This document shows, in pieces, positions 3-12,899 of a DNA stretch of 21,077 nt (within the stretch, counting starts at the first letter, position 1; every line of letters begins with the position of its first letter). Source of the DNA: a virus. The notes under the pieces were generated by a model. The model searched no databases. It saw nothing but the letters and a program-made list of their open reading frames with translations, and had not been told where the DNA came from. The stretch covers positions 1-21,077 of IMG/VR virus record IMGVR_UViG_3300025889_001141, one strand, 5' to 3'. Both the position numbers and the translations under genes were made by a program.

Positions 3-893
3 CCAAACTTACCTTTCGGTGCAAGATCTGTTGAAGTTGCAACTGATAAAAAAACAGGTTTAGATATGATGATTGTTCCAAGAATAGAGAATGGTCAAAA
101 CGTTGGAACAATGGCTGTTCCTATGCAATATACTGACTATACACCAGTCAAAGTATCTGAAGCAAGATTAGATAAAAGAAGAAAACAATTAAGAAGTATT
201 CAACAAGGTTATGAATTAACACAAAAAGTAGACCAACTTCCTAAAGGAACTTTTGGTACAAAAGGTACAACTAAACTTTATGTAGAAAATGTATTAGGAA
301 CTTTTGGTGACATAGGTGAAATGTTAGGTTTGGGTAATTTAGGTACAACTGAATCTCCAATAGATGCAACAATTATTAATGATTACATCGGTGGAGAGAA
401 GTTAGATGAAGCAGGTAATGTAAGACCTCCAACTGAAGCTGAAAGAAAAGAAATGAACGAATTACAAGAACAATATAGAAATGAAATAAGAGATATTACA
501 GCTGATATTTCACCTAATGAAACTGACTTAGATAATATAACTAAAGCAAGACTAATTCAGGTTAGAATGAAATACATCCTTGCAAACGCATTAAAAGATG
601 AAGATAGATTGACAAGAGCCGACATTGAAGATGCTGCGCAATCAACAGAAGTATTAAAATTCTTCTCATCTGACAAAGCTATCAGATCAAGTTATAGAAA
701 TTTAGCAAAGAACTTAGAGAAACAATTTGAAAGAGTAGGCACTGACTTTATCGAAGCTGGTGGATCTGAAAAATATTTAATGTCTTTTGATAATATGCCT
801 TATATAGCAGAGATAAAAGCAAAAGCACAAAATGCTTTAATGTCTAATCAAATACAACAACAGAACATGAATGTACTTGGAACTATTAAATAA
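3..893 (+). CDS. Virion-module protein, 5' end cut by window edge
   Basis: The reading frame is open from the left edge (codons from base 3 read PNLPFGARSVEVATDKK) into the ATG at base 66, so that ATG is probably internal and the true start lies outside the window. At least 297 residues are visible. The protein is hydrophilic and mostly helical in appearance, with many Lys, Glu and Gln residues, a Gly-rich stretch (KGTFGTKGTTKLYVENVLG) and a Gln/Asn-rich end (SNQIQQQNMN). No signal peptide, membrane segment or catalytic motif is seen. Its stop overlaps the start of the next gene as TAATG, which implies translational coupling. I do not recognise the family. Its place before a giant internal-protein-like gene suggests a virion or ejection component. 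The coding call is solid and the role is inferred. Confidence 0.85.
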   Translation, partial: PNLPFGARSVEVATDKKTGLDMMIVPRIENGQNVGTMAVPMQYTDYTPVKVSEARLDKRRKQLRSIQQGYELTQKVDQLPKGTFGTKGTTKLYVENVLGTFGDIGEMLGLGNLGTTESPIDATIINDYIGGEKLDEAGNVRPPTEAERKEMNELQEQYRNEIRDITADISPNETDLDNITKARLIQVRMKYILANALKDEDRLTRADIEDAAQSTEVLKFFSSDKAIRSSYRNLAKNLEKQFERVGTDFIEAGGSEKYLMSFDNMPYIAEIKAKAQNALMSNQIQQQNMNVLGTIK

Positions 894-3800
894 TGGCTAC
901 TTTACAAGAATTACAAACAAGGTTAGATAATAAAACCTTTGACCCTTCTGCTCTTAATAAAGAACAAAGAGTAGCTGTAGATAATGCTTTCAAATCAGGA
1001 CAACTTAAAGGTTATTCAAGCGTTTCAGAAATAGAAAAAGAAAGAAACATTGCTAGTAGAGTAATTGCTGCAGAGAAAGAAAAGAAAGCAGATCCATTTA
1101 AAGTAGCAACAAGAGGTAAGATTCCTTTTACAGATGAAGGAGTTGAACGATCTGATTTAGAATTAGCTGGAGATGTTACAGGAAGTGCATTTGTATATTT
1201 AAAAGATGCTAAAAAAATTACTGAAGCATTTACTAGAGATCCTGCAGCAGGTTATGGTGCAGATAAATTAAGAGCTGCGGCTACAGATTTTGATAAATTT
1301 GAAAAAGCTTTTCAAAGATTACCAGTCATTAAAGGTGTAAAAATATTACAAAAAACTGCAAGAGCTTTAGGAAAATTCGCAGATGGATTTAGAACAGTAT
1401 CCAAAGCACCTACACAATTATTAGTAACTGAAGCTAAATCTCAATTAGCTGGAGCAGGAGGAGCTGGAGCAGGTTCTGTTTTATATGATATGGCAAATGT
1501 AGCTACTGATTTTAACGTAGCTGTAAATAAAGACCTTGCTGCTATATCTGATAACGATATTAAAAAACTTCCGTATGCACAGCAAGTAGCAGTACATAGT
1601 GCAGAGGCTATGCGTAATGCTTTGTATTTTAATTTAATAGGTTCTTCATTAGCGCCGATTTTAAATGTAACTTTAAGAGGTATGAAAGGCGCATTAGGTT
1701 TAGGGAGTCCAGAAGCTAAACAATTAGCTGAAGCAGCTGAGAAACAAGGTATTAAATTATCTATGTCTACTTTAGCAGATACAGGATCTATTGGTGGAAG
1801 AATTATACAAGGTTTTGAAAGAGTCTTTGGTGTAATTCCATTAGTTAACGTATTTGCAAAAAAACAAAGAGCTGCTGTAGAGAAACAAACATTTGAAGCA
1901 TTTATTGATCAAGTATTAAGTAAAGCACCTTTGGAACACGTAGGTCTGATGAATTTAAAATTTTTACCAACTATGAGAGCTAACTTTGAACAATACTTTA
2001 ATATGATTCAACAAAACTATGCTCTTGTAGATACTATCGCAGAAAAGATGGGTAACCCTAAATTTATTCCAACTGCTGGTATGAAAGAAGCGGCACAGAA
2101 TTTTATGACTAAAATGGAAGCCTCGTTACCTCCTGAAGTGTTAGGTAGAATGCAAAGGGAAGGACAAGCGTATCCAGAATTTTTAGCAGCTAAAATGAGA
2201 GATTCAGGGTTTGATGATTCTTTTACAGATATAATTAATAAAGTTAGATCTTTAGATGATCAAATAACTCCTACAGAATATCAAGGTTTGATGAGACAAG
2301 TTGTAAATGGAATGTCTAAATCTAAAATGTCTGATATTAGAGGGACTTTCCATAATGTAATGAATGCAGCAAGAGAAGATTTTAATAAAGTTGCAGATCC
2401 AAATAACATACAAGGATACTTAGCAAGCAGAAACTTCAAAGAAGAGTATCAAAGAATTTTAGAATCAAATGGTGAGCAAGCTGCAAAAGAATATTTAACT
2501 AAAATACAAAGTGGTATGCAAGATTTTGGTAAGCAATTACAAGTTGCTAACGGTTTCTTTTCAACAGTTACTTCCGCTTTCAATAGTCCTATTGCCAAAA
2601 AAATAAGAAATAGTTCTGAAAATGTATTTGCAACTAAAGGTTTATTAGGTGTTATGCCTGAAGGAAGAATACAACCTGATGAGATATGGGAAAAAACAAT
2701 TCAACAAGTATTTGCAAAACCTAACGCAGGTTCAATGAGAGAACTTAAATTTATTTTAGGTGTAGATAATCCTAAAAATGAATTAGGAAAACAATTATTT
2801 AATAGAGCAAGATCTGTTTATTTAACTGAAGCTTTACTGAACTCATATACTAAACAACCTATGATCCCAGGTAAAACTATGGGTGATATCATGGATCAAG
2901 CTAGAGAACTTGGTGTAATTGATTACAAAGGTAATAAAGAAATATTTGATATGGCAGGCACTACACAGTTAGAGGAAGTAAAAAGAATTAATCCTCTTAT
3001 GGCTGATAGATACAATTTAGGTGATGTAAATGTAAGGGATATTAAAATGGCAGCTAAAGATGCTGGTGAATTTAATATTAAATTATTTAAAGAACAACTA
3101 GGTTTAACAAGAAAAAATATGTCTGATGAGGCTGCTAAGATTCAAGCAATCGATAAATTTACTGAGATGTATGGTGGTGGAAGAGAAGGTAAAGAAGCTG
3201 CTAGAAACTTAATTCAGTTAATAGACATCATGGATAAAGAATATGGTAAATACATTTCTGATTCTAACTCATACCTAATGAGAAGAATTATGTTATCGGG
3301 TGCAGGTCAAACTGCAATTGGTGGTGGTTTCTTAGCAGGTGCTGCGGCATCTGGAGGTGTTATTAATGCTTTACCTTTAACACTTATGTTAGCTTCAGGT
3401 GGTTACCTATTAGCTAGTCCTAAAAGTTTAAAATACATGTTAGATGTTTATACAGATTTTGAAAGATTAGATAAGTTAGGTAAAAAGGTTACAGTTGCTA
3501 ATGTACCTAAATCTATGTTTAGATTATTAAACTGGGCTTCAGAAGAAGACAAAGACTTTCCTGATGTAGATCCTAAGAAAATTAACTTTGAAGAAGTTAC
3601 TGATTACTTATTAACTAAAAACATATTAATTCCTGAGCTAGGCTTTAGTCCACAAGCTGTAAATAAACCACAAAGAGATCATTTCTTTCCTGAATTAAAA
3701 GTAGTTGATAGAAGCTCTGAAGCACAAAATTCTTCAGGTATTAATTTTTTAAATGGTTCATTACAAGGTGGACAAAAAGCAGAGCAGGTTGTTAATTTTC

Positions 3801-3997
3801 AACCAGCTGCACAACAGCCTCAAGCAATACCTCCAGGATCAGTAGGTAACATACCTTTAAATGCTCCTGCATACCAAGGTTTAGTTGCACCACAATATTT
3901 ACCGCAAAATCAAATGAATGCACAAAGACAACAACAGTTTCAATCTTTATTTCCTAATGATGCATTAGGAGCAGCAATATCAGGAAGGGCGCAGTAA
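893..3997 (+). CDS. Large virion internal/ejection-like protein (1034 aa)
   Basis: This is the largest gene in the window. The protein is Lys/Ala/Gln-rich and largely helical in appearance. It has a Gly/Ala-rich hydrophobic patch near residues 183-200 (LAGAGGAGAGS) and a longer hydrophobic Gly/Ala stretch near residues 803-842 that could insert in a membrane. The last 100 or so residues are rich in Pro, Gln and Asn and look disordered. I see no lysozyme or transglycosylase catalytic motif. Size, composition and position after another virion-type gene resemble the internal core or ejection proteins of podovirus-like phages (role of T7 gp15/gp16), but this is analogy, not a recognised domain. 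The start is the ATG in TAATG, coupled to the upstream gene, and the stop is coupled in the same way to the next gene. Confidence 0.8.
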   Translation: MATLQELQTRLDNKTFDPSALNKEQRVAVDNAFKSGQLKGYSSVSEIEKERNIASRVIAAEKEKKADPFKVATRGKIPFTDEGVERSDLELAGDVTGSAFVYLKDAKKITEAFTRDPAAGYGADKLRAAATDFDKFEKAFQRLPVIKGVKILQKTARALGKFADGFRTVSKAPTQLLVTEAKSQLAGAGGAGAGSVLYDMANVATDFNVAVNKDLAAISDNDIKKLPYAQQVAVHSAEAMRNALYFNLIGSSLAPILNVTLRGMKGALGLGSPEAKQLAEAAEKQGIKLSMSTLADTGSIGGRIIQGFERVFGVIPLVNVFAKKQRAAVEKQTFEAFIDQVLSKAPLEHVGLMNLKFLPTMRANFEQYFNMIQQNYALVDTIAEKMGNPKFIPTAGMKEAAQNFMTKMEASLPPEVLGRMQREGQAYPEFLAAKMRDSGFDDSFTDIINKVRSLDDQITPTEYQGLMRQVVNGMSKSKMSDIRGTFHNVMNAAREDFNKVADPNNIQGYLASRNFKEEYQRILESNGEQAAKEYLTKIQSGMQDFGKQLQVANGFFSTVTSAFNSPIAKKIRNSSENVFATKGLLGVMPEGRIQPDEIWEKTIQQVFAKPNAGSMRELKFILGVDNPKNELGKQLFNRARSVYLTEALLNSYTKQPMIPGKTMGDIMDQARELGVIDYKGNKEIFDMAGTTQLEEVKRINPLMADRYNLGDVNVRDIKMAAKDAGEFNIKLFKEQLGLTRKNMSDEAAKIQAIDKFTEMYGGGREGKEAARNLIQLIDIMDKEYGKYISDSNSYLMRRIMLSGAGQTAIGGGFLAGAAASGGVINALPLTLMLASGGYLLASPKSLKYMLDVYTDFERLDKLGKKVTVANVPKSMFRLLNWASEEDKDFPDVDPKKINFEEVTDYLLTKNILIPELGFSPQAVNKPQRDHFFPELKVVDRSSEAQNSSGINFLNGSLQGGQKAEQVVNFQPAAQQPQAIPPGSVGNIPLNAPAYQGLVAPQYLPQNQMNAQRQQQFQSLFPNDALGAAISGRAQ

Positions 3998-6627: not shown

Positions 6628-7173
6628 ATGGACTTAGAACAAATATCGAAGAGTATTACTCTTGATACAACAGCAATGGAAGATATTGCCACTGCCTGTA
6701 ATAAGTTATTGGACGTTCAGAAGGAAGTATCAGAGCTAGAGGACAAACTAAAAAAGAAAAAAGAAGAAGAACTGAAACTTTCTGAACAAGATATACCAAA
6801 CTTAATGCAGAAAGCTGGTGCAGCTTCTATTAAACTTACAGACGGAACCGCAGTTGAAATCAAACCATACTATGGTGCGAGAATACCTGCGTCTCGAACT
6901 GAAGAAGCTTTTGATTGGCTTCGTGAAAATAATTTTGCGGATCTAATTAAAAACAATGTAACATTAACCTTTGGTCGTAATGAGGACAACGTAGCAAAAT
7001 CTATAGTTGACGATTTGCGAAATAAAGGGCATAATGTTAAGCAAGCCGAAAAGGTAGAACCGATGACTCTTAAAGCTTTCGTAAGAGAGCAAATTGAAAA
7101 AGGGAAAGACGTTCCTGCCGATTTATTCGGTGTTTATGTAGCAACACGAACAAAGTTAACAACGAAGGAGTAA
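6628..7173 (+). CDS. Coiled-coil phage protein of the replication operon (181 aa)
   Basis: First plus-strand gene of the replication operon, with an excellent ribosome-binding site (AAGGAGG, 5 nt before the ATG). Residues 20-55 are a charged coiled coil (VQKEVSELEDKLKKKKEEE). After this comes a compact domain that begins with a hydrophobic turn (AGAASIKLTDGTAVEIKPYY), continues with AFDWLRENNFADLIKNNVTLTFG, and ends in a helical Lys/Glu-rich tail. I know similar proteins only as conserved phage hypotheticals beside replication genes. No enzyme motif is visible. It lies 1 nt before the next gene, whose ribosome-binding site is inside this gene's end, so the two are probably translated together and act in the same process, perhaps as a DNA-binding accessory factor. 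Confidence 0.8.
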   Translation: MDLEQISKSITLDTTAMEDIATACNKLLDVQKEVSELEDKLKKKKEEELKLSEQDIPNLMQKAGAASIKLTDGTAVEIKPYYGARIPASRTEEAFDWLRENNFADLIKNNVTLTFGRNEDNVAKSIVDDLRNKGHNVKQAEKVEPMTLKAFVREQIEKGKDVPADLFGVYVATRTKLTTKE

Positions 7174-7174
7174 C

Positions 7175-7999
7175 ATGCAAAACGCAAAAGATGCAGCTAA
7201 TAGTGTAGCTGTGAAAAAAGAAGCGGGTGTTCCAACGCAATTTAATTTGGAAGAGTTAGCAGGACAAGGACAAGAATTTGTCACTGCAAGGGATACTAAA
7301 CTCCCAATCTTAAAAATCCTTTATAGCAATTCACCTGTGCTTGACGAATCAGATGGCAAGTATATTGAAACTGCTAAGCAAGGAGACATTTACAACGAAA
7401 CATCTGGAAGTCTTTACAAAGGTAAAGATGGATTAATTGTTGTACCATGTTTATATATAAACACGTTTAATGAGTGGAAAGACAGAGGCGATAGTCCTGG
7501 AAGACCAGTTGGTATCCATATGGATCCATCAATCATGTCTCAAACATCGAGAGGTGATGACGGTAAAGACAGACTAGAGAATGGTAACTATGTAGAAGAT
7601 ACAGGTAACCATTTTGTTTATGTCTTAGATAGTGATTACAATCCAGTTGAGACTGCATTGATCTCTATGAAATCTACTCAGAAAAAGAAGAGTAAGACTT
7701 GGAATTCTATGATGCAGAGTCGTAGAATGAAGGGTAAGAAAGGTTTCTTTACTCCACCGTCTTGGGCAACAGCCTATAGACTAAAAACAACTAAAGAGAG
7801 TAACTCACAAAACTCTTGGTACGGTTGGGTCATTGAGTTCGATAGATATCTAGATGATCCAAAATTGTCGGGTACATTAGAGTCGACAAAAGCGTTTTAT
7901 GAGTCCGCTAAGCAAAGCGATATCTTTGGTAAAGTTGACTTCGGTAAAGAAGAATCTGCTAAAGTTAAGCAGGTTGAAAATCAAAGTACACCGTTCTAA
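7175..7999 (+). CDS. Possible phage ssDNA-binding protein (274 aa)
   Basis: This conserved-looking phage protein has the segments LPILKILYSNSPVLDESDGKY, a Gly-rich region near residues 125-145, and a basic, aromatic segment SMKSTQKKKSKTWNSMM (about residues 163-179) that would suit nucleic-acid binding. The C-terminus becomes charged and ends in STPF. A C-terminal Pro-Phe or a lone terminal Phe is a hallmark of bacterial SSB and of T7-type SSB, where it docks partner replication proteins. Here the tail is only mildly acidic, so the match is weak. Position between the coiled-coil gene and the primase supports a replication role. The ribosome-binding site is GAAGGAG. The coding call is firm; SSB is a hypothesis. 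Confidence 0.8.
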   Translation: MQNAKDAANSVAVKKEAGVPTQFNLEELAGQGQEFVTARDTKLPILKILYSNSPVLDESDGKYIETAKQGDIYNETSGSLYKGKDGLIVVPCLYINTFNEWKDRGDSPGRPVGIHMDPSIMSQTSRGDDGKDRLENGNYVEDTGNHFVYVLDSDYNPVETALISMKSTQKKKSKTWNSMMQSRRMKGKKGFFTPPSWATAYRLKTTKESNSQNSWYGWVIEFDRYLDDPKLSGTLESTKAFYESAKQSDIFGKVDFGKEESAKVKQVENQSTPF

Positions 8000-9591
8000 T
8001 GCAAAAAGAGTTACTTCAATTATTTGAAGGAGACTCTTCCCAGTTCATCACCATCTCTCTAACGGGAGAGATGGATGAACGGGGTAAGCGTAAAGCCTCA
8101 TATCTCACGGTACACGAACCAGTCACAGAAGAATTGTGGAAAAGTCATGTGGATGGTACACAACAGATAGGTATAAGACCAGAAAATGGCGACAAGCTTA
8201 AATGGTCTTGTATAGATATAGATCCAGCTAACTATAAAGAATATACATCTAAAAAGTATGTAGACATAATAAGAGATTTTGAATTACCCTTAGTGCCTGT
8301 AAAATCTAAATCAGGCGGGTTACATTTATTTATTTTTTTTAGTGATTGGGCTGATAAACAAAAAGTTAAAGATAAGTTAGAAGAAATTAATAAAGAATAT
8401 TTTTTATCAAAAGAAGTATTTCCCTTAAACAAAGGTGTAGGTATGCCATACTTCAACGCAAATGCTGCAGTTGAATATGCATTTGATGATACTAACACTC
8501 CATTAATGTTGGGTGGGTTTTTAGAACTTGCAAAAAAGAAAACAATTAAACCAGAAGAATTTTTTAAGTATAAAGTTACAGAGTACAATGCTGAAACAGA
8601 TTGGAGAGATTATCCACCATGTGTTCAGAAAGTAATACAGGAAGGTTGGACAGGCGACAGAAATAATATGTTGTTTAATGTTTGTGTTACTGAAATGAAA
8701 AAAGCAGAGGGTAATCTAACTGTAAGACAATTAAAAGATATCGCATGGGAAAGACAAAAAACAATTTTTGCATCACATCCTAAAGGTCCACTTAAAAGAA
8801 ATGAAAGTGACGGCACTGCACAATCCGTGCATACAAAAGGTTATGAATATTTTTGTCCACCTAAACATAATTTTGTTTCATCTATATGTGATAAAGAAAC
8901 ATGTAAACTTAGAAAACTTGGTATTGGTGTTCAAGCACCAGATATTAAGAATGAGTTTGAAAACTTAACATACACTGAAGACTCAAAAGGTATTATTTAT
9001 GAATGTGATTTTAGAGATAGACATATTACTTTTAAGCCAGAAGATACTAAAGATGAAAAGTCATGGAGAGTATGTTTAGCTAAATACAGAATATTCTGGT
9101 TGACATTACCAAGACCCAAAAAAGGACCAAGTCCATTTGAGTTATTGATGAAACATTTATTAGAGTCTGCAACAGAGAATACCGCATTTAAGTATGAAGA
9201 TACCAAAGAAGAAGAGAAATACAATACACTTAAAATATTTTTTGAAAGTACAATTGAACAAGATGATTTCACTAAATTAAAAGATGGTTACACAGTATTA
9301 GATAGTAAAGATAATGTTTGTTATTTTAAACGTAATACATTGGCTGATTTCTTAGAAAAAAGAAAGACACCATTTAGAAGTGTTAATGCAGCTGTAAGAT
9401 TATTAGAATGTAAAAAACATGATTTCTTTGAAGGTGAGCGTAATGTGTGGTATGTAGAAATGCCTGAGTTTGTTAACCATCAAAAGATTAAACCAAAAAA
9501 TCAACAACCCGAACTTAGTGAAATGGATGATGAGTACCACAGCAAATTTAGGACTCCAGAAACAAAAACAGATCTATCAAAAAACGATTAA
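7999..9591 (+). CDS. Archaeo-eukaryotic-type (AEP) primase
   Basis: The 530-residue protein has the AEP catalytic core. The first metal-binding pair is in CIDIDP (D73, D75), the nucleotide-binding motif is SKSGGLHLFIFF with H109, and a later acidic motif is VEYAFDD (about 158-164). A Cys/His cluster follows at residues 286-302 (C286, H290, C297, C302), like the zinc or iron-sulphur region that follows many AEP domains. Such enzymes make primers, and some also polymerise DNA. The remaining 220 residues form a C-terminal domain I cannot name. The start overlaps the upstream stop (TAATG) with no clear ribosome-binding site, so translation probably depends on reinitiation. The 3' end is overlapped by the next helicase gene in another frame. 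Confidence 0.85.
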   Translation: MQKELLQLFEGDSSQFITISLTGEMDERGKRKASYLTVHEPVTEELWKSHVDGTQQIGIRPENGDKLKWSCIDIDPANYKEYTSKKYVDIIRDFELPLVPVKSKSGGLHLFIFFSDWADKQKVKDKLEEINKEYFLSKEVFPLNKGVGMPYFNANAAVEYAFDDTNTPLMLGGFLELAKKKTIKPEEFFKYKVTEYNAETDWRDYPPCVQKVIQEGWTGDRNNMLFNVCVTEMKKAEGNLTVRQLKDIAWERQKTIFASHPKGPLKRNESDGTAQSVHTKGYEYFCPPKHNFVSSICDKETCKLRKLGIGVQAPDIKNEFENLTYTEDSKGIIYECDFRDRHITFKPEDTKDEKSWRVCLAKYRIFWLTLPRPKKGPSPFELLMKHLLESATENTAFKYEDTKEEEKYNTLKIFFESTIEQDDFTKLKDGYTVLDSKDNVCYFKRNTLADFLEKRKTPFRSVNAAVRLLECKKHDFFEGERNVWYVEMPEFVNHQKIKPKNQQPELSEMDDEYHSKFRTPETKTDLSKND

Positions 9592-11161
9592 GATCTTTGG
9601 TCCACCAGGAACAGGAAAGACTTGGACTTTGATAGAACGAGTTGTTAAAAAATATTTAAAGAATGGTGTAGATCCAGAACAAATTGCATTTATATCTTTT
9701 ACTAATAAAGCTGTAGATACTGCAAAGATTAGAGCGCTAGAAGCGTTTCCACATTTAGACAGTAAATCATTTTCTAGATTTAAAACTTTGCATTCATATT
9801 GCAGGAGATATTTTGAAGAAGAAATCTTCGATACTAAAGATTGTATGATTGATTATGCACTTACAAATAATTTTGTAAAAAGATCTGACAATAGATTATC
9901 ACAAGATAACTTTACTTATTCCGATTGGTCGCTTGGTATTTATGACAAAGCTAGAAACTTATTAGAAGATCCTGTGTTAGTTTATAAAAGAGAATCTCAA
10001 AAGAAAGATAACCTAGATGTGTTTACAAGAAAGATTAGCACTTACGAACATTATAAAACTGGTGGTGGCGAAAGATCTTTTTTAGATTTTACAGATATGA
10101 TTGAACGAGCTTTGCATGAAGTAGAGTTTCCAAAGCTTGAGGTATTGATACTAGATGAAGCTCAAGACTTTACTCCATTACAATGGTCATTGATCTATAA
10201 GATGTCGGATAATGTAAAAAGAATTTATCTTGCAGGAGATGATGACCAAGCAATCTATCAATGGAATGGTGCAGATACAAAATATTTTACAAAATATTTC
10301 CCTGGACGAAAAGTTGTATTGCGTAAGACCAGAAGATTTGGACAAGCTATACACCAATTCTCACAGATAGTTAGAAAAGGTATCTTAGATAGTGTTGATA
10401 AAACATTTGAACCCTTGGTTAAAGAAGGAATTGTAAAAAGATATTTAAGTTTCAAAGAAATACCTTTTGAAAAAGATGAGGGTAAATGGTTTTTACTTGG
10501 TAGAATTCATACAACTGTGAACGAGTTGAAAGCTTTAGCTAAAGATGCAGGTATATATTTTGCAGATAACAAAGGTCAAAAATCTTTTGATATGAATCAA
10601 TGGCAAGCTATCAAAGCCTGGACAGCTATCTCAAACGGTAGAGAGATAATGAAAAAAGAAGCTGAGGCTATGTTTAAATACATCAGAGAAGTTACAGATC
10701 CAGATTATAGAACTCCTAAGTTTTGGTCTAAAGAACCAGATTATAAACGATATGATTTTACTGCACTCAAAGAATGGTGTGGATTAGATTTACCCGATGA
10801 AGCACAAAAGAAAGCTTGGTGGTGGATATTAAGACGTAACTTTAAACCAAGACAAGTAATTTATTTTTTAAGATTATTAAAAAGATATAAACAAGCTAAG
10901 TTAGATGAACCACCTAACGTAATTATTGATACCATACATTCAGTAAAGGGGGACGAAGCTAATCATGTTTTATTATACTCCAAAGCTAACTGGCCATCAA
11001 GTTATCGACACAAGGATAAAGATGAGAAATCAAATGAAAAGAAAGTTTGGTATACAGGAGTAACAAGAGCAAGAGATAGTTTGCATTTATTAAGCACAGA
11101 CTATAAATATCATTATCCAATTGGAGAAGATTATTTAGTATATGTACAAGGAAACAAATGA
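9527..11161 (+). CDS. UvrD/Rep-like superfamily 1 DNA helicase
   Basis: SF1A helicase motifs appear in order: Walker A GPPGTGKT (residues 25-32 from this start), motif II LDEAQD, motif III GDDDQAIYQWNGAD, motif V IDTIHSVKGDEANHV and motif VI YTGVTRARDSLHLL. Such helicases unwind DNA 3' to 5' in replication or repair. The frame is open further upstream to a TTG at 9470, but that would bury 40 codons in the primase gene. The adjacent ATGs at 9527 and 9530 are better, and they still leave a 62-65 nt out-of-frame overlap with the primase. No strong ribosome-binding site is present, so coupling to primase translation is likely. At about 545 residues it is shorter than cellular UvrD (about 720). 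The stop overlaps the methyltransferase start as ATGA. Confidence 0.88.
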   Translation: MMSTTANLGLQKQKQIYQKTIKIFGPPGTGKTWTLIERVVKKYLKNGVDPEQIAFISFTNKAVDTAKIRALEAFPHLDSKSFSRFKTLHSYCRRYFEEEIFDTKDCMIDYALTNNFVKRSDNRLSQDNFTYSDWSLGIYDKARNLLEDPVLVYKRESQKKDNLDVFTRKISTYEHYKTGGGERSFLDFTDMIERALHEVEFPKLEVLILDEAQDFTPLQWSLIYKMSDNVKRIYLAGDDDQAIYQWNGADTKYFTKYFPGRKVVLRKTRRFGQAIHQFSQIVRKGILDSVDKTFEPLVKEGIVKRYLSFKEIPFEKDEGKWFLLGRIHTTVNELKALAKDAGIYFADNKGQKSFDMNQWQAIKAWTAISNGREIMKKEAEAMFKYIREVTDPDYRTPKFWSKEPDYKRYDFTALKEWCGLDLPDEAQKKAWWWILRRNFKPRQVIYFLRLLKRYKQAKLDEPPNVIIDTIHSVKGDEANHVLLYSKANWPSSYRHKDKDEKSNEKKVWYTGVTRARDSLHLLSTDYKYHYPIGEDYLVYVQGNK

Positions 11162-12114
11162 ATCATTTAGATCTTTTTAGCGGTATTGGTGGATTTAGTT
11201 TAGCCTTAGAAAAAGTAGGATTTAAAACAATAGCCTTCTGCGAAAGAGATGAATATTGCAGATTGTTGCTGCAAAAACATTGGAAAGGAGTTAAGATATA
11301 TAATGATATTAAGAAATTGGAAGGAAAGGACATCAAAGAAAAAGTCGACATCCTCACAGGTGGTTTCCCCTGCCAACCCTACAGCGTTGCAGGAAAACAA
11401 AAAGGAACCAATGACGATAGATATCTCTGGCCAGAAATGTTTAGAGTCATTAAAGAAGTCCAACCCACCTTCATTATTGCAGAAAATGTCAGAGGTCTTA
11501 TTAACATCCAAGACGGCATGGTCTTCGAGACAGTGTGCTCTGATTTGGAAAGTGAAGGCTTCGAAGTCCAAACGTTTGTTATTCCAGCTGCAGGCGTCGG
11601 CGCGCCCCACAAAAGAGACAGAGTCTGGATTGTGGGCTACTCCAAACACAATGGATCACTTACCTCCAAGATCAAAAGAGGGAACAATGAAATTAATGCA
11701 GGGGCACAGGAAAGGCAGAACGAGACCATCGAATCTGAGAGAGCAAGTGGATCCAGAAACAATGAGGTTATGGAGAACTCCAGACGCACATTGCGACAGG
11801 GGAGCAAGCTCAGCAAAAAGAATGCAGATGAAAGTAGAAAAGAAAATGCCAATCAGTTTGAACGATCAAGTAGCACATCCAAACATAATGTGGCCGACAC
11901 CGAGAGAGTTTATGTACAAGGACAGCAAGGTAGATCGAGGCAAGAGCAATCTAGGGGAAAAAGTTGGTGGGAGTTTGAACCCAATGTGGGTAGAGTGGCT
12001 AATGGGGTACCCGGGCGGGTATACCGACTTAAAGCATTGGGAAACTCTATCGTCCCGCAAATCGCAGAAGAAATAGGAAGGGCAATATGGAAAGTAACAA
12101 AGAACCAAAACTAA
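11158..12114 (+). CDS. dcm: DNA (cytosine-5) methyltransferase
   Basis: The core C5-methyltransferase motifs are present: I at the N-terminus (LDLFSGIGG), IV with the catalytic Cys (GGFPCQPYSVAG, C72), VI (AENVRG, E109), VIII (APHKRDRVWIVG, 149-160) and IX-X (RLKALGNSIVPQIAEEIG, from 290). It would methylate cytosine in duplex DNA using SAM, probably to protect the phage genome. No linked restriction enzyme is seen. The start is an ATGA overlap with a preceding AAGGA. Residues 162-268, where the target-recognition domain should be, are polar and low in complexity, with recurring GYSK, MENSRR and VADTER turns, and no obvious hydrophobic core. A second frame over this same DNA is open and protein-like (see the overlapping CDS). 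GC is higher here than in neighbouring genes. Confidence 0.92.
   Translation: MNHLDLFSGIGGFSLALEKVGFKTIAFCERDEYCRLLLQKHWKGVKIYNDIKKLEGKDIKEKVDILTGGFPCQPYSVAGKQKGTNDDRYLWPEMFRVIKEVQPTFIIAENVRGLINIQDGMVFETVCSDLESEGFEVQTFVIPAAGVGAPHKRDRVWIVGYSKHNGSLTSKIKRGNNEINAGAQERQNETIESERASGSRNNEVMENSRRTLRQGSKLSKKNADESRKENANQFERSSSTSKHNVADTERVYVQGQQGRSRQEQSRGKSWWEFEPNVGRVANGVPGRVYRLKALGNSIVPQIAEEIGRAIWKVTKNQN
11411..12076 (+). CDS. Overlapping +1-frame gene inside the methyltransferase (221 aa)
   Basis: This frame is open from at least 11249 to 12076, wholly inside the methyltransferase gene. The ATG at 11411 has AAAGGA 4 nt upstream. Three features look selected. First, a segment ending KRLLFQLQAS (residues 37-63, with SSRQCALIWK before it). 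Second, three repeats beginning WATP (75), WRTP (121) and WPTP (161), each followed by an acidic turn and then SNLREQV, ISLNDQV or SNLGEKV (107, 148, 179). Third, the terminal motif LNPMWVEWLMGYP (189-201). From memory, WxTP and LNPxWVEWLMG motifs are typical of proteins found in many phages and Bacteroides genomes. The same DNA in the other frame encodes methyltransferase motifs VIII-X. Function is unknown. A TRD-like partner subunit or a product of frameshifting is possible. Confidence 0.55.
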   Translation: MTIDISGQKCLESLKKSNPPSLLQKMSEVLLTSKTAWSSRQCALIWKVKASKSKRLLFQLQASARPTKETESGLWATPNTMDHLPPRSKEGTMKLMQGHRKGRTRPSNLREQVDPETMRLWRTPDAHCDRGASSAKRMQMKVEKKMPISLNDQVAHPNIMWPTPREFMYKDSKVDRGKSNLGEKVGGSLNPMWVEWLMGYPGGYTDLKHWETLSSRKSQKK

Positions 12115-12899
12115 GAATACTAAGCCTTGGAGCAGGCGTACAGAGCTCTACAATGGCCTTGATGGCAGATGCTGGAGAGTTTGGTGTAAAGCCAGACGCA
12201 GCTATCTTCGCTGATACGGGTTGGGAACCTGAACCTGTAATAAAACATTTAGAGTATCTAAAGTCAGTATTAAGTTATCCTGTGTATTTAGTTAAGAAAG
12301 GTAATATCCAAGATGACATCCTCACGGCTCTCGCACCAGGTGGTAATCAATTTGCTTCTGCACCATTCTATACTTTAAACGAACAAGGTAAGAAAGGTAT
12401 GGGTAGAAGACAATGTACAAGAGAATACAAGATTACTCCGATTGCTAAAAAGATTAGAGAACTATGTGGACTTAAACCAAGACAAAGATTTCCAAAAACA
12501 GAATTTGTAGAAGTTTGGGTTGGTATATCAACTGATGAAATTATGCGTATGAAGCCTTCAAGATTTTGGTGGCAGAAAAATGTATGGCCATTGATAGATA
12601 AAAAAATGTCAAGAGAGGATTGTTTAAAATGGTATGAAGGTAAAGGATTTAAAATACCAGTTAAGAGTGCATGCATTGGATGTCCATTTCATGATGATAA
12701 GTTTTGGATTGATATGAGAGACAACCGTCCGAAAGAATTTGCATCTGCTGTAGAATTTGATAAAAAGATGCGTATGCATAACCCTAAAGTTAAAAACTTT
12801 GTACATCGACAATGTGTACCATTAGATGAGGTTAAGTTCAAAGATGATGAGGGTCCAGATTTATTTAATCAAGAATGTGAAGGGATGTGTGGTGTATGA
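12087..12899 (+). CDS. PAPS-reductase-like ATP pyrophosphatase
   Basis: The PP-loop of the adenine-nucleotide alpha-hydrolase fold is clear near the N-terminus (ILSLGAGVQSSTMALMA, residues 11-27), followed by FADTGWEPEPV (41-51). The MGRRQCTREYKI segment carries C110. C-terminal cysteines in SACIGCPFH (C196, C199, H202) and CEGMCGV (C264, C268) suggest a metal or iron-sulphur site. Phage relatives are usually annotated PAPS reductase, but the same family includes DndC, which acts in sulphur modification of DNA. I infer an activity that adenylates a substrate, not necessarily sulphate reduction. The start lies 28 nt inside the methyltransferase gene with AGGAAGG before it. Adjacency to a methyltransferase fits a role in DNA modification. 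Confidence 0.88.
   Translation: MESNKEPKLRILSLGAGVQSSTMALMADAGEFGVKPDAAIFADTGWEPEPVIKHLEYLKSVLSYPVYLVKKGNIQDDILTALAPGGNQFASAPFYTLNEQGKKGMGRRQCTREYKITPIAKKIRELCGLKPRQRFPKTEFVEVWVGISTDEIMRMKPSRFWWQKNVWPLIDKKMSREDCLKWYEGKGFKIPVKSACIGCPFHDDKFWIDMRDNRPKEFASAVEFDKKMRMHNPKVKNFVHRQCVPLDEVKFKDDEGPDLFNQECEGMCGV

Follow-up and report, generated by a model that had tools for sequence, protein, structure and literature searches.

Fully overlapping reading frames in a phage genome probably encode a two-subunit C5-cytosine methyltransferase

The methyltransferase locus and its nested frame

The window, by which we mean the whole 21,077-base virus record analyzed here, contains a C5-cytosine methyltransferase gene (alpha) with a second open frame (beta) inside it, surrounded by phage replication genes. 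The neighbors of the pair are a primase, a UvrD-like helicase, a PAPS-reductase-like gene, and a family A DNA polymerase. The PAPS-reductase-like gene lies straight after the methylase (12087–12899; PHROG 424, E 1.9e-49), and phage C72C1 (L005) likewise carries one a short way 3' of its methylase pair. Elsewhere in the window, consecutive genes at 6628–9591 encode a DUF7307 protein (Pam3 gp33-like), a Pam3 gp34-like protein, and a primase weakly similar to TOTE-type AEP, and a 1034-aa ORF at 893–3997 has no Pfam or PHROG match. None of the genes annotated in the window was recognized as encoding a restriction enzyme, so the methylase looks solitary and phage-encoded.

Family searches were run separately for the two frames, as the initial annotation had proposed, and assigned alpha to PF00145 and PHROG 363 and beta to PHROG 1008. 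Alpha contains the PF00145 catalytic domain, with motif I, motif IV (PCQ), motif VI (ENV), and motif VIII, and motif X is present near its C-terminus, with LGNSIVPQ conserved. M.HhaI was matched by profile over alpha residues 1–164. Alpha has no recognizable target-recognition domain of its own and no motif IX. Its features are as follows.

11158..12114, + strand: alpha, predicted C5-cytosine DNA methyltransferase catalytic subunit, 318 aa (PF00145, E 5.6e-57; PHROG 363, E 9.2e-84)
11170..11196, + strand: motif I, DLFSGIGGF (from sequence; G9–G12 invariant in the alpha alignment)
11362..11385, + strand: motif IV with the catalytic Cys, GGFPCQPYS (from sequence; P71, C72, and Q73 invariant)
11482..11490, + strand: motif VI, ENV (E109, N110, and V111 invariant)
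11608..11637, + strand: motif VIII, HKRDRVWIVG (from sequence and alignment; aligned to M.HhaI)
11977..12012, + strand: EPNVGRVANGVP, from the same bases as the beta motif IX (E274, P275, V277, G278, R279, V280, and G283 invariant)
12031..12060, + strand: motif X, KALGNSIVPQ (L294, G295, N296, and P300 invariant)

Within alpha, a +1-frame ORF of 275 aa spans 11249–12076, and the frame is free of stops from 11234. It contains the elements listed here.

11249..11410, + strand: upstream stretch of the +1 frame, open, without detectable beta-frame selection
11400..11406, + strand: Shine-Dalgarno-like AAAAGGA, 4 nt ahead of ATG 11411 (from sequence; kept in close homologues)
11411..12076, + strand: beta, putative nested +1-frame subunit, 221 aa, start most likely ATG 11411 (PHROG 1008, E 9.8e-23; selection)
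11633..11644, + strand: WxTP unit 1, WATP (from sequence)
11771..11782, + strand: WxTP unit 2, WRTP (W121, T123, and P124 invariant in the beta alignment)
11891..11902, + strand: WxTP unit 3, WPTP (W161, P162, and T163 nearly invariant)
11975..12013, + strand: motif-IX-like LNPMWVEWLMGYP (invariant in the beta alignment; its fused-enzyme counterpart aligns with canonical motif IX)

The initial annotation described this frame as it stands, including the three WxTP units and the elements that follow them (NLREQV, SLNDQV, and NLGEKV). It also proposed that one DNA repeat serves both proteins. The consensus TGGnnnACnCC does fit all three sites, at which alpha reads GYSK, MENSRR, and VADTER; the alpha repeats are probably an out-of-frame shadow of the beta WxTP codons, because alpha is unconstrained there (see below). 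LNPMWVEWLMGYP and EPNVGRVANGVP are likewise read from common bases (11975–12013 and 11977–12012). Close relatives have 2 to 4 WxTP units, and units may have been gained or lost.

The start of beta is most likely ATG 11411, judging from the onset of beta-frame constraint at about 11411–11424. The AAAAGGA ahead of it falls inside conserved Q-K-G codons of alpha. The ATG and SD-like sequence noted in the initial annotation are present in the window, but such a start is not universal: within a codon or two of this spot, 41 of 60 distinct loci have a start codon (38 ATG, 3 GTG) and 19 have none, and the latter may use upstream ATGs. The +1 frame 5' of 11411 is open in all 60 (at least 32 codons), more often than permutation predicts, yet without beta-frame selection.

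Conservation of the overlap and selection in both frames

The +1 frame in alpha is real and not a product of chance. In 5000 synonymous-codon permutations of alpha, the longest +1 run averaged 84 codons and never exceeded 203, compared with 280 observed, and the same test on 10 other genes of the window gave nothing comparable. With the beta peptide held fixed and its codons permuted, an average of 0.65% of trials left alpha open past motif VIII, whereas 59 of 59 real loci have it open. Neither permutation reproduces the openness, and together with the substitution classes described below they rule out a chance ORF.

Searched with the beta ORF, viral contigs yielded 558 relatives, 80 of which were examined; wherever both genes could be placed, beta lay +1 relative to alpha and both were open. 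An alpha-anchored search, which used only residues 1–84 upstream of beta and so avoids selecting by beta, gave 71 distinct loci. The +1 frame matches the beta profile in 69 of these and is open for at least 200 codons in 65. Frequent +1 stops in homologues, which the initial annotation had named as evidence against a nested gene, are thus not seen, the frame being open and beta-like in 69/71.

The nested pair occurs in Paenibacillus, Lacticaseibacillus, Klebsiella, and Escherichia phages, in N15, on plasmids, and in bacterial contigs of several phyla, as well as in prophage-like loci of Bacillota, Pseudomonadota, Elusimicrobia, Nitrospirota, and Parcubacteria. The N15 methylase had no high-identity match among complete E. 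coli genomes. Citrobacter and Salmonella plasmid records list only alpha, in a gene table that is incomplete. Paenibacillus polymyxa plasmid pAP1 (L093:1733–3223) carries the pair in nested form, with four WxTP units, and shows a second, duplicated motif-IX-like stretch in the +1 frame, 3' of the beta stop. In Deep1-GF2-KM23-C739 (L003:1300–2136), the alpha frame is broken near the N-terminus and two methylase CDS are annotated, perhaps owing to a sequencing frameshift.

Codon-position diversity was measured among 36 close homologues; diversity is low among the loci of one clade, in which events are not independent. At alpha third positions it is 0.31 before 11411, 0.14 in 11411–11620, and 0.09 in 11621–11950, where alpha first positions (beta third positions) climb to 0.34 and become the most variable, with alpha third positions the least. 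The most variable codon position shifts along the gene, such that constraint belongs entirely to beta at about 11650–11960 and returns to alpha at motif X.

Substitution classes were evaluated over 602 pairs with a codon bootstrap; the pairs are non-independent, and the intervals describe how values differ from place to place in the gene and do not extend to variation over the tree. Beta dNN/dNS is 0.22 (0.17–0.29) in the overlap and 0.14 in the putative recognition region, compared with 0.87 (0.52–1.48) upstream, the proper baseline for this ratio being the 0.56–0.65 of flanking control genes. Alpha dNN/dSN is 0.13 up to motif VIII and 0.15 in the tail at motif X (12025–12073). Between them, at 11641–11960, it rises to 2.2 (1.5–3.5), and alpha is without amino-acid constraint here, where the initial annotation had noted low complexity at the expected place of the target-recognition domain. 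Alpha-silent changes (alpha third, beta second positions) number 0.15 per site within the overlap, compared with 0.85 in the part of alpha upstream of it and 0.78–0.99 in flanking genes, and thus do not reach the neutral rate that would have spoken against dual coding.

Purifying selection thus acts on both frames: jointly in 11411–11640 and at motifs IX/X, and on beta alone in 11641–11960. The view in the initial annotation that the overlapping pair is conserved and not fortuitous is borne out by the 69/71 alpha-anchored loci, the permutations, and selection in both frames. The long ORF from 11249 that it described is indeed open, but its part 5' of 11411 shows no beta-frame selection; in 11249–11410, dNN/dNS is 0.80 and the alpha-silent rate is 0.80, like single-coding DNA. 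A shadow of alpha is adequate to explain sequence similarity in that part.

Could such a shadow, or a fortuitously open frame, account for the rest of the ORF? Same-strand shadows of conserved proteins do appear conserved, and the conserved alpha motifs VI–VIII underlie the N-terminal third of beta. At 11650–11960, however, the conserved frame is that of beta and not alpha, and in the same loci the pattern in flanking genes is normal. A shadow is therefore rejected for this segment, and we give this explanation of the +1 ORF as a whole virtually no chance.

Nested, split, and fused members of the beta family

PHROG 1008, a family built independently by others and labeled "DNA methyltransferase," covers two mycobacteriophage proteins in addition to matching beta: Rebeuca gp79 and residues 203–364 of Estave1 gp75. 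In Rebeuca, motif VIII is the last motif before alpha (gp80) stops, and the recognition region and motifs IX and X follow in the +1 frame; gp79, which holds IX and X, is a distinct polypeptide, and its gene overlaps that of gp80 at the end of the latter. In single-chain mycobacteriophage methylases such as that of Estave1, the beta-family segment is read in the alpha frame and separates motif VIII from motif X. The family is therefore found nested (window), split (Rebeuca), and fused (Estave1), representing three architectures of one enzyme.

An iterated profile search started from nested betas alone reaches the in-frame VIII–X segment of many fused mycobacteriophage enzymes. The first-pass profile–profile link covers the motif-IX segment only (probability 65%), with the WxTP link made via intermediates or PHROG 1008. 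When the fused enzymes are aligned with a standard phage enzyme, EWMMGWP falls on its canonical motif IX, and the spacing between motifs IX and X is 25 residues, compared with 26 in the standard enzyme. On this profile evidence, beta is homologous to the VIII–X segment of single-chain methylases. The model of fused Estave1 matches M.HhaI over the whole span (Z 22.3, rmsd 3.3, 218 residues aligned), with low confidence in the WxTP part (pLDDT 24–40). AlphaFold gave a poor model of beta alone (pLDDT 43). Profile searches with beta found no match in PDB or Pfam, and the Estave1 motif IX–X segment had no meaningful match in PDB.

Two further observations concern the fused forms. In several mycobacteriophage single-chain methylases (L087, L095–L111, and L116–L124), the +1 frame is open at roughly codons 112–245 despite the fusion, and alpha third positions dip at codons 121–165; a shorter overlapping gene or a remnant may persist there. 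Another locus (L117:2001–3233), with motif IX in the alpha frame and several LLPTP repeats in the +1 frame, has the look of a nested–fused intermediate.

The strongest indication that beta would work as part of a methylase comes from the natural fusions. Since PHROG 1008 spans both a split subunit and an in-frame VIII–X segment, beta most likely supplies target recognition and motif IX in trans. The initial annotation had suggested the recognition role, and beta probably does have it, as single-chain methylases have homologues of it between motifs VIII and X, and the VIII–X sequence of alpha itself is free of amino-acid constraint. That beta carries motif IX, and the M.EcoHK31I precedent discussed below, were absent from that annotation.

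Alternatively, beta may be unrelated to methylation, acting as a selfish out-of-frame HNH endonuclease or a host-takeover factor, roles that have been proposed for out-of-frame ORFs inside phage methylase genes (PMC11855218). The model for the former is ShiLan, whose hidden HNH endonuclease is an out-of-frame ORF in phage methylases, inserted as a mobile element with a patchy distribution (PMC11855218). Beta resembles it in lying out of frame inside a phage methylase gene. Its Pfam and PHROG matches, however, include no HNH or other nuclease family, so that a ShiLan-type element is rejected; the overlap is present in nearly all relatives and not as a patchy insertion; and the beta family forms part of methylase chains elsewhere. 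We consider a role apart from methylation improbable.

A probable two-subunit enzyme and its relation to known systems

Taken together, selection in both frames, the conservation of the pair, its motif content, and its family relationships make it probable that two fully overlapping frames specify the subunits of one C5-cytosine methyltransferase, with beta contributing recognition and motif IX. Alpha would provide AdoMet binding and catalysis (motifs I–VIII) along with the C-terminal motif X. Beta would be made separately in the +1 frame by internal initiation, most likely at ATG 11411, with its WxTP-repeat region acting as the target-recognition domain. We infer that the two chains associate into one M.HhaI-like bilobal enzyme, which would methylate phage DNA at a specific site, probably as protection against host restriction. 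The alpha sequence between motifs VIII and X would then be a pass-through linker, kept open only for ribosomes to reach motif X.

Programmed +1 frameshifting would instead have ribosomes slip from alpha into beta, yielding one fused chain and no second polypeptide. In Rebeuca a single slip would give the whole enzyme, and the +1 frame is open well 5' of 11411 at every locus. Selection on both frames at about 11424–11640 in the window implies that beta residues over motifs VI–VIII are made in addition to those of alpha, whereas a fusion after motif VIII needs none of them. Moreover, because motif X lies in alpha, a single whole chain would require two shifts. A start codon and SD-like sequence are found where beta selection begins, and no frameshift site was identified. 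We regard frameshifting as a poor prospect compared with internal initiation of a separate beta.

Prokaryotic systems seldom have same-strand nested genes of more than 200 codons with both frames clearly selected, and annotation often passes over such genes; what is noteworthy here is how widespread and poorly annotated the nested methylase arrangement is. The chances are roughly even that these loci represent a large, mostly unrecognized class of phage and prophage C5-methyltransferases that keep the recognition module as a +1-frame subunit. In such a class, the module would have moved between frames, and repeat units would be gained or lost free of amino-acid constraint from the catalytic frame, which could let specificity change while the catalytic subunit stays as it is. 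Should beta be the recognition subunit, then the search for specificity in many phage methylases has been directed at the wrong frame, and what looks like a low-complexity "recognition domain" in alpha is a shadow. With one enzyme in nested, split, and fused versions, the family lends itself to studies of how overlapping genes originate, and it supplies a natural split methylase for engineering.

Among phages, Paenibacillus larvae phage Tadhana has the same nested pair (gp54/gp55), with both CDS annotated as DNA methyltransferase, and so does phage N15 at gene 58, where the beta frame is unannotated; each has ~28–31% identity to the window in beta. Single-chain methylases of the Estave1 gp75 type share the beta family, with WxTP-like units and a motif-IX-like EWMMGWP, but within their own methylase frame. 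M.AquI is a C5-methyltransferase divided into two polypeptides after motif VIII (PMC3404938). Its small subunit holds motifs IX and X, whereas motif X of the window is in alpha; Rebeuca gp80/gp79 looks AquI-like and shares the beta family.

In M.EcoHK31I (YGGCCR), a C5-methyltransferase made of two polypeptides, the small subunit bears motif IX and the large subunit the remaining motifs (PMC3404938). The window resembles it in having motifs I–VIII and X on the larger chain and the motif-IX-like LNPMWVEWLMGYP on a separate, smaller one. Work attributed to Lee et al. in 1995 reportedly placed the EcoHK31I small subunit inside the large one in another frame, an arrangement that the window shares. 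The two systems differ in that the literature puts the EcoHK31I recognition domain in the large subunit, whereas here the beta WxTP region is the likely candidate, and in that M.EcoHK31I belongs to a restriction-modification system, whereas no restriction gene was recognized among those annotated in the window. On the basis of its architecture, alpha/beta may be classed as a split methylase of the EcoHK31I type.
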